Assembly: GCA_016196035.1 (NCBI GenBank)
Contig: JACPYM010000091.1
Coordinates: 64,501 to 128,500 of the forward strand
Origin: Acidobacteriota bacterium
GTDB lineage: Bacteria; Acidobacteriota; Blastocatellia; RBC074
Length of the DNA: 64,000 nt
Direction of reading: 5' to 3'
Part shown: positions 37,633 through 39,522 of the stretch, piece by piece
How positions within the stretch are numbered: the stretch's first letter is position 1
Layout of the letters: every line of letters starts with the position of its first letter
Notes under the pieces: model-generated
Told to the model about the DNA's origin: nothing
Seen by the model: the letters and a program-made list of their open reading frames with translations, nothing else
Database searches by the model: none
Translations under genes and position numbers: made by a program

Positions 37633-39522
37633 CTACGGAGTCCTGGCAGCCAGCACAACACGAAAACCGATAACGAGGCCGCGGTTGCCGGGTTCGTACC
37701 TATAACGATCGGCCGAACGGCAGCTCCTTCCATCGTTGTCCCACGAACCACCGCGCAGCACCCGGCGACTTGAGTCTCCACCACTCAACCAACCTGAGCC
37801 ATCCAGCGGCGCGCTATTGTAGTTGTCATGCCAAACGTCCTCACACCATTCCCACACATTGCCATGCATATCGAATAGGCCAAAGGCATTGGCTGTGAAG
37901 CTGCCCACATCGGTGGTTTGCTGGCGATAGACGCCCTTAGCCGCGCCGCCATAAGGATAGTTGCCGTCAAAATTCGCCTGGGTTGACGACAGCAAAGAGC
38001 CAAAAGCAAAAGGCGTGTTTGTGCCCGCCCGCGCGGCATATTCCCATTCAGCCTCAGTCGGCAGGCGGTAGGTTTTGCCAGTCAATTGCGAAAGCTTCTG
38101 ACAAAACTCGGTGACGTCATTCCACGAGACTTGTTCAACCGGGCGATTCGCGCCTTTGAAGTTGGACGGATTGTTGCCCGTCACGGCCTGCCATTGCGCC
38201 TGCGTGATTTCGTATTTGCCGATGGCAAAGGCGGGCACGTTCACGCGATGTTGCGGCCCTTCGTCGTTGCTACGCTCAGCTTCGTTGGCGGGCGAACCCA
38301 TCGTGAAGGAACCGGCTGGCACGTTTTTCATTTCGAGTTTGACGCCGTTGACGGTTGCGGTGAAATCGCGGCCTGCAGGCAGGGCATTTGGCTGTTGTGA
38401 CGTGGTGGTTGGCGTTGACGGCCCAATCGTGCCCGGTGTGCTGTTACTCGCCCAATAGACCGCCAGGCCAAGCGCCGGAACACCAAGCAAGCCCACCAGC
38501 CACGGCAGACGCGAACGCCGGGCGGCTGGCACGGGCTGCGGTTTCGACGCAGGCTGCGGCAAAGCTGGTTCAGGCTGAGCCGGACGCGGCGGCGCGGGTC
38601 TGGGAATGGTGGTCGGATCAACCTGCACCGTGGGCGGGTTAATCACGGGCGGCGCGGGTCTGGGCGTTGGTGGCGGCATAACGGGTCTGGTCGGCTGCGA
38701 CTCGTTGAGCGCCGCCAGCATTTCCCGCGCGTTTTTGTAACGCGCGCGGTAATCGTATTGCGCCGCCCGCTCCAGCAACTCGCACAGTTCATTGCCGAGC
38801 GGGCCGGTGTGCCCGCGCCAAGCCAGATCGCCGCTCGCCAGATCGTTCAGGTCGCGCGGTTCACGCCCCGTCAAGGCAAAGATCATGGTCATCGCCAGGC
38901 TATACAGATCGCTGCCATAAACCGGACGCCCAACGCTTTGTTCAACCGGCGTGTAACCCGGCGTGCCGATGATCAGCGAAGCCTTTTGCGGCGTGCCGTA
39001 AGCGTCCAGCACGGTGGTGATGATCTCTTTGACCGCGCCAAAATCAATCAGGACAGGCTGCCCGGTGTTGATCCGCAGCAGGATGTTGTCGGGTTTGATG
39101 TCGCGGTGAATGATGCCCTGCGCGTGGATTTCGTGGAGCGCCTGCAACAAACTCGCCAGCAATTGGCGCGTGCGGGCTTCATCCAACCGGCCCTGCGCGC
39201 GCACGTATTGGCCCAGCGTCTGGCCTTCGATAAATTCCTGCACCAGGTAATACTCACCGGCTTCGCTGAAGAAGGCGTACAGTTTCGGCACCTGATGGCA
39301 AACTTCTGAGAGGGCTTCCAGCACAGCGGCTTCGCGTTCAAAACGTTCGCGCACGATTTCATAAGTGCGCGCGTCGAGTTGCTGTTTCGGCCTGAATTTT
39401 TTGATGACGCATTTGCGCTGCGACGGCAATTGCCGGTCAACGGCTAAAAAGGTTTCGCCGAACCCGCCAGCATCGCTGAGGGTGCGGATGATTTCGTAGC
39501 GGCCCTGCAATAAAGCGTTCAT
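37633..39522 (-). CDS. DGR target: Ser/Thr kinase with extracytoplasmic FGE-sulfatase/C-type-lectin domain
   Basis: 629 residues. The kinase domain (about 8-275) has a Gly-rich loop (DAGGFGETF), Lys41/42, catalytic HRDIKPDN (139-146) and DFG (160-162). Then come a Pro-rich linker (277-338), a membrane helix (339-358) and an FGE-sulfatase domain (about 398-626: [64 protein letters not shown]). The last 40 residues are encoded by VR. Sites 595, 597, 600, 605, 607, 609 and 615 differ from the Asn encoded by TR, while 596 and 613 are still Asn. The topology implies a cytoplasmic kinase and an external, hypervariable binding face: a diversified receptor kinase. Confidence 0.95.
37643..37765 (-). 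other. DGR variable region (VR)
   Basis: 123 bp at the 3' end of the receptor kinase gene, ending 10 bp before the gene's last base. Compared with TR, the eight substitutions on the coding strand are A to G (five), A to T (two) and A to G/A to G at one double-changed AAC to GGC codon, giving Asn to Asp, Asp, Ser, Asp, Tyr, Tyr and Gly. No non-adenine position differs within the 123 bp. The GC-rich 3' segment (GTGCTGGCTGCCAG) is the likely IMH. Confidence 0.95.

Follow-up and report, generated by a model that had tools for sequence, protein, structure and literature searches.

Diversity-generating retroelements (DGRs) whose targets join a Ser/Thr kinase to a C-type-lectin (CLec) domain are known from cyanobacteria, where the CLec domain lies at the C-terminus of the protein, the variable repeat (VR) lies at the 3′ end of the gene, and remote VRs occur in the genome (Vallota-Eastman 2020, PMC7517822). 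In Thiohalocapsa PB-PSB1, a network of multiple DGRs includes degenerate loci whose VRs match a template repeat (TR) located elsewhere (Dore 2024, PMC10907252). Both kinase-FGE DGRs and trans-acting degenerate loci are already published, and the kind of system treated here is therefore known. Two features of the Bordetella phage BPP-1 system also bear on it: a hairpin or cruciform 4 bp past the VR is required for efficient homing (PMC3240598), and the primer for cDNA synthesis in the TR 3′ junction is a spacer adenine (PMC12875486).

The locus described here lies in an Acidobacteriota genome, within a stretch of 64,000 nucleotides that was analysed as a whole and is called the window. It resembles the cyanobacterial systems in its kinase with a C-terminal CLec domain, its 3′ VR and its remote VRs, with reverse transcriptases (RTs) up to 67% identical, but it differs in its host and in having several related cassettes, of which two are relics with no RT. 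With Thiohalocapsa PB-PSB1 it shares several DGRs per genome, degenerate loci matched in trans, and targets in which NACHT and TIR occur with FGE/CLec domains; here, however, the host is another organism, the target in the window belongs to the kinases and not to the STAND or ternary-system proteins, and the comparison draws on genome sequences. Adenine mutagenesis, Avd, a hairpin after the VR, and a structured spacer 3′ of the TR with a candidate internal priming adenine recall BPP-1, whereas the TR follows the RT gene, the VR border and the hairpin are about 45 nt apart (4 in BPP-1), and the target is a cellular kinase. TvpA of Treponema denticola (PDB 2y3c) is likewise a DGR variable protein with an FGE-type CLec fold (Foldseek rank 3, TM-score 0.81), but a stand-alone one.

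Results

The minus-strand array runs in the order target, avd, RT, TR, all on the same strand (Table 1). The preliminary description had named the two repeats TR and VR, a naming borne out by the Avd and DGR-type RT genes that sit between the target and the TR. The Avd protein scores 115.6 bits against NF033474, for which the cut-off is 80, and the RT is intact, with relatives that themselves adjoin TR/VR pairs. The GxxxSQ motif form is typical of DGR RTs. Tens of partial copies of the palindrome between avd and RT are found genome-wide, and it is probably not a working DGR part. Elsewhere in the window, at 14907-14951, an Acido-Lenti-1 RNA (RF01687) is matched with a score barely over the cut-off.

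Table 1. Features of the DGR locus in the window (window coordinates).
Feature	Coordinates	Strand	Description and basis
Conserved structured RNA	35714..35892	-	TR 3′ end and spacer, helices P1-P4; RNAalifold, pair counts
Invariant adenine (GTCC-A-G)	35823	-	Directly 3′ of the P1 closing pair, 17/17 rows
Template repeat (TR)	35882..36004	-	Nine AAY codons; A>N gives no stop at any codon
DGR reverse transcriptase, 352 aa	36022..37080	-	Pfam RVT_1 7.7e-19; YVDD and IGNLTSQ motifs
89-nt palindromic repeat between avd and RT	37099..37187		MITE/REP-like
Avd accessory protein, 130 aa	37167..37559	-	NCBIfam NF033474 DivGenRetAVD 1.1e-33; Pfam bAvd 3.5e-20
Hairpin, perfect 8-bp stem, 3-nt loop	37580..37598	-	Followed by ATGAATTTTCTTGA; ~45 nt past the border
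DGR target gene, 629 aa	37633..39522	-	Ser/Thr kinase, Pro-rich linker, probable TM helix, FGE/C-type-lectin domain
Boundary base	37642	-	VR G, TR C; first non-adenine mismatch; IMH/IMH*-like border
Variable repeat (VR)	37643..37765	-	About aa 587-627 of the target; alignment to TR
FGE/CLec domain, aa 398-623	37654..38331	-	Pfam; AlphaFold pLDDT 94; Foldseek
Probable transmembrane helix, aa 339-357	38452..38508	-	Kyte-Doolittle 1.66 over 19 residues, marginal
Kinase domain, aa 18-224	38851..39471	-	Pfam; HRDIKPDN and DFG motifs in translation

Recomputing the gap-free alignment of TR and VR that had been reported over 123 bp (offset 1761) gave the same result, with all eight substitutions at TR-sense adenines, six of them A>G and two A>T. 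In agreement with the preliminary description, seven TR Asn codons read D, D, S, D, Y, Y and G in the VR, and two remain Asn. The TR contains 25 adenines, as had been counted, and the 8 that are altered place the window VR at the low end among the TR-VR pairs seen. The chance of finding all eight substitutions at A, a calculation that had been proposed as a check, is P = 1.05e-6 given the base composition. A preference for AAY codons among the altered adenines is not significant in the window pair alone (P = 0.12), while in the pooled pairs 59% of AAY adenines are altered vs 44% of other adenines (P = 5e-5).

The upstream edge of the VR is abrupt, at 37765/37766. At the opposite edge, homology extends the repeat to 129 bp (37637-37765), with a single extra mismatch, C/G at 37642, followed by five further identical bases. 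Because the same border, with G in the VR and C or T in the TR, recurs in most relatives of the window RT branch, we read this mismatch, just outside 37643-37765, as the TR/VR boundary and not as a counter-example to the adenine rule. The hairpin past the border is a candidate target-recognition hairpin or cruciform; a hairpin with ATGAA(A)TTTTT after it also occurs 3′ of the VRs on contigs C104 and C7, in genome G001, and on contig C33 (L017, L018, L023 and L022). An IMH/IMH*-like border and a hairpin 3′ of the VR can both be recognised, as predicted elements.

The target protein combines a kinase (Pkinase, 1.4e-29) with an FGE domain (FGE-sulfatase, 8.7e-56). Matching only the kinase part, PADLOC gives PD-T4-6 profiles as its best hit (1.7e-89); many kinase profiles match, and the hit shows that the protein is a kinase, with no proof of a defence role. 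An Arg-rich segment precedes the hydrophobic stretch at aa 339-357 on its N-terminal side, and the two suggest one transmembrane helix with the FGE domain outside. The VR lies at the 3′ end of the gene, in a domain whose CLec fold is indicated by Pfam, by the AlphaFold model and by Foldseek, which matches the model to PvdO (5hha), TvpA and FGE. Across 44 FGE homologues the nine TR-Asn positions vary far more than the rest of the VR (mean entropy 3.19 vs 1.33 bits, P = 8e-5), a result that partly restates the mechanism, since the homologues include many DGR targets. Most likely the target acts as a sensor kinase in the membrane, with a diversified outer domain that would bind a changing ligand and signal via the kinase, and a role in phage defence or in recognition of other cells is plausible. 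A homologue from the same genus (L128, G001:C1199) has a kinase 83% identical to that of the window protein and lacks the TM linker; its VR region is frameshifted at a G-run, yet GAGGACTCCGTAG is still terminal.

The 9.6-Mb assembly containing the window was searched for further DGR RTs, and two were found, on contigs C104 (73% identical to the window RT) and C33 (49%), each with its own TR and VRs. Besides the window VR the genome holds six further VRs. In its six gap-free TR-VR pairs, 86 of 86 substitutions lie at A (39 A>G, 39 A>T and 8 A>C). Two TR-TR comparisons serve as the control: of 22 differences between the window and C104 TRs, 4 lie at A of the window TR, and of 25 between the C33 TR and the relict TR on C34, 3 lie at A. 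Drifting copies change at all bases and TR-VR pairs at A only, which settles the matter and upholds the earlier claim that the pattern goes beyond ordinary drift.

The targets on C33 are two TIR-NACHT-FGE proteins, and that on C104 is an FGE protein. Contigs C34 (L112) and C84 (L113) also carry TIR-NACHT-FGE target genes (Pfam), here with decayed TRs, and RT searches of the genome found none at either locus; C34 retains an Avd that shares 77% identity with the C33 Avd. Compared with the intact C33 TR, the VRs of these two loci differ only at 16 and 15 adenines, respectively, and at the boundary base. For both loci, with decayed TRs of their own and VRs that fit an intact TR on another contig, diversification in trans is probable. 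On C7, the VR of a TIR-FGE gene (L018:6782-6914 = C7:66781-66913) matches the C104 TR except at adenines and at a 2-nt insertion, and for C34, C84 and C7 alike diversification in trans would be the simplest reading of these matches. The insertion in the C7 VR lies near an AACAAC stretch and shifts the frame, by a slip of retrohoming or an assembly error. On contig C64 (L021:5107-5448), a probable DGR relic consists of an Avd fragment of 42 aa, with 83% identity to its window counterpart, next to an FGE gene whose VR-like end has drifted.

Comparison with VRs in related genomes, the second check that had been suggested, gave the same adenine bias at loci encoding related RTs. Forty loci of named genomes that encode such RTs were taken for a TR/VR search; the automatic procedure found pairs at most of them, with mismatches mainly or only at TR adenines, in a table that is biased because only pairs with 75% or more of their mismatches at A were retained. 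The in-genome comparison is the cleaner one. At three loci in two genomes of the same family (G016 and G009), taken with no 75% filter, 19/19, 18/19 and 16/19 mismatches lie at A. Related RTs from cyanobacteria, Planctomycetes, Accumulibacter and others adjoin TR/VR pairs with the A bias. In Goleter apudmare (L073), a related RT (66% identical) serves a target of the same kinase-FGE plan, with an A-biased VR and a kinase 42.5% identical over 275 aa. Another genome of the family, G017, has two A-biased TR/VR cassettes with spacer RNAs (L137:1653-2191 and L142:1784-2215); a search of its 96% complete assembly for a related RT found none. A housekeeping protein encoded in the window, dihydroxy-acid dehydratase, shares 82% identity with its counterpart in an uncultured Acidobacteria MAG and at most 61%, at comparable length, with those of the remaining genomes tested, in keeping with an Acidobacteriota host.

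With all differences between TR and VR confined to TR adenines, we hold with high confidence that the window locus is a complete and probably functional DGR. On the opposite side stand the marginal hydropathy of the TM helix, the missing linker and frameshifted VR of L128, and the small share of altered adenines. Three other explanations were weighed against this reading of a functional DGR. A DGR that was active until recently and is now inactive is unlikely: decay of such loci is evident elsewhere in this genome, where TRs have decayed at loci with no RT, and the same-genus target homologue has a frameshifted VR, but at the window locus the RT motifs, Avd, TR, spacer RNA, VR border and hairpin are all intact, and zero non-adenine differences have accumulated inside the VR. 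Adenosine deamination or other base editing, striking one copy of a duplicated segment, would suit the predominance of A>G in the window pair (six of eight), but two changes there are A>T, over six VRs A>T is as frequent as A>G and A>C occurs, and RT and Avd genes lie adjacent; A>T and A>C are not deaminase products and fall at the same sites, and this explanation was rejected as exceedingly improbable. Plain duplication followed by drift or diversifying selection, with the adenine bias due to chance or codon choice, can draw on the nearly all non-synonymous changes within a ligand-binding type of fold, but it is scarcely credible against a P of 1e-6 from the window pair alone and the same bias at many other loci, and was rejected on the TR-TR controls of the same genome, which drift at all bases.

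Immediately 3′ of the TR, about 170 nt from the TR end onward are conserved at 17 loci in three phyla (Acidobacteriota, Cyanobacteria and one planctomycete). The consensus structure has 40 pairs, 35 of which show compensatory changes. Paired cells amount to 90%, vs 70% in shuffles and 31-44% with the partner slid, and the covariation score is 0.64 vs 0.26; the structure was derived from the tested alignment and is thus favoured over the slid controls, but despite this sharing the compensatory counts lie far beyond those controls. A covariance model (R1) gives 133.3 bits on the window spacer, which is in its training set, and, across 558 kb, 23 matches with E no higher than 1. Matches beyond the training set include L077, L105 and L086, with TR-adjacent sites in L143, L144 and L147; among 297 genomes of the phylum, R1 matches in four only. 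Since R1 misses the spacer of the C33 DGR and those of most proteobacterial DGRs, the RNA is not universal. One match (82.8 bits) lies in genome G298 (L139:1501-1671), where no related RT was detected in the genome and no TR/VR repeat in the stretch examined at L139.

Searching Rfam 15 with the TR spacer returned nothing at gathering score, and a permissive scan of 2.2 kb gave weak matches outside the spacer only, mostly on the palindrome at 37099-37187. No published description of the spacer RNA was found in the open-access literature, a search that subscription papers largely fall outside and that proves little; the RNA is possibly a novel element.

In helix P1 the end of the TR (ACTCYTC) pairs with the spacer. 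The boundary base stands opposite C and, being a pyrimidine in 15/17 rows, is unpaired in these. The adenine flanking P1 lies 57-60 nt past the last shared TR base in 15/17 rows, and by analogy with BPP-1 we propose A35823 as a candidate internal primer of cDNA synthesis. Under this proposal the cDNA would begin at G35882 or slightly upstream of it, and the boundary base would then be left uncopied.

Discussion

The sequence of one genome allows an outline of how the parts of this locus may work together, with ongoing retrohoming as a prediction. A complex of RT and Avd would bind the transcript of the TR and its structured 3′ spacer. Synthesis of cDNA would then begin at the TR 3′ end, probably primed from the spacer adenine, with misincorporation opposite template adenines. 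The mutated cDNA would replace the VR at the 3′ end of the kinase gene, altering the binding face of the FGE/CLec domain while conserved codons are kept.

More tentatively, we consider it a real possibility that cellular DGRs of Cyanobacteria, Acidobacteriota and Planctomycetes, across a large branch, have one undescribed RNA family 3′ of the TR in common. In this family, P1 would be formed by the TR end and the spacer with the boundary base left unpaired, and the invariant adenine about 58 nt downstream would be the primer of the cDNA. If true, the RNA family model would explain where TR-VR identity ends.

The genome offers a well-controlled DGR network in Acidobacteriota, with unusually clean internal controls, in which a hypervariable sensor kinase occurs alongside TIR and TIR-NACHT proteins that are seemingly diversified in trans. 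The TR-spacer RNA, in turn, is a specific and searchable marker of DGR templates, even where no RT lies nearby, and provides a model, open to testing, of what may set the cDNA start and the VR border.
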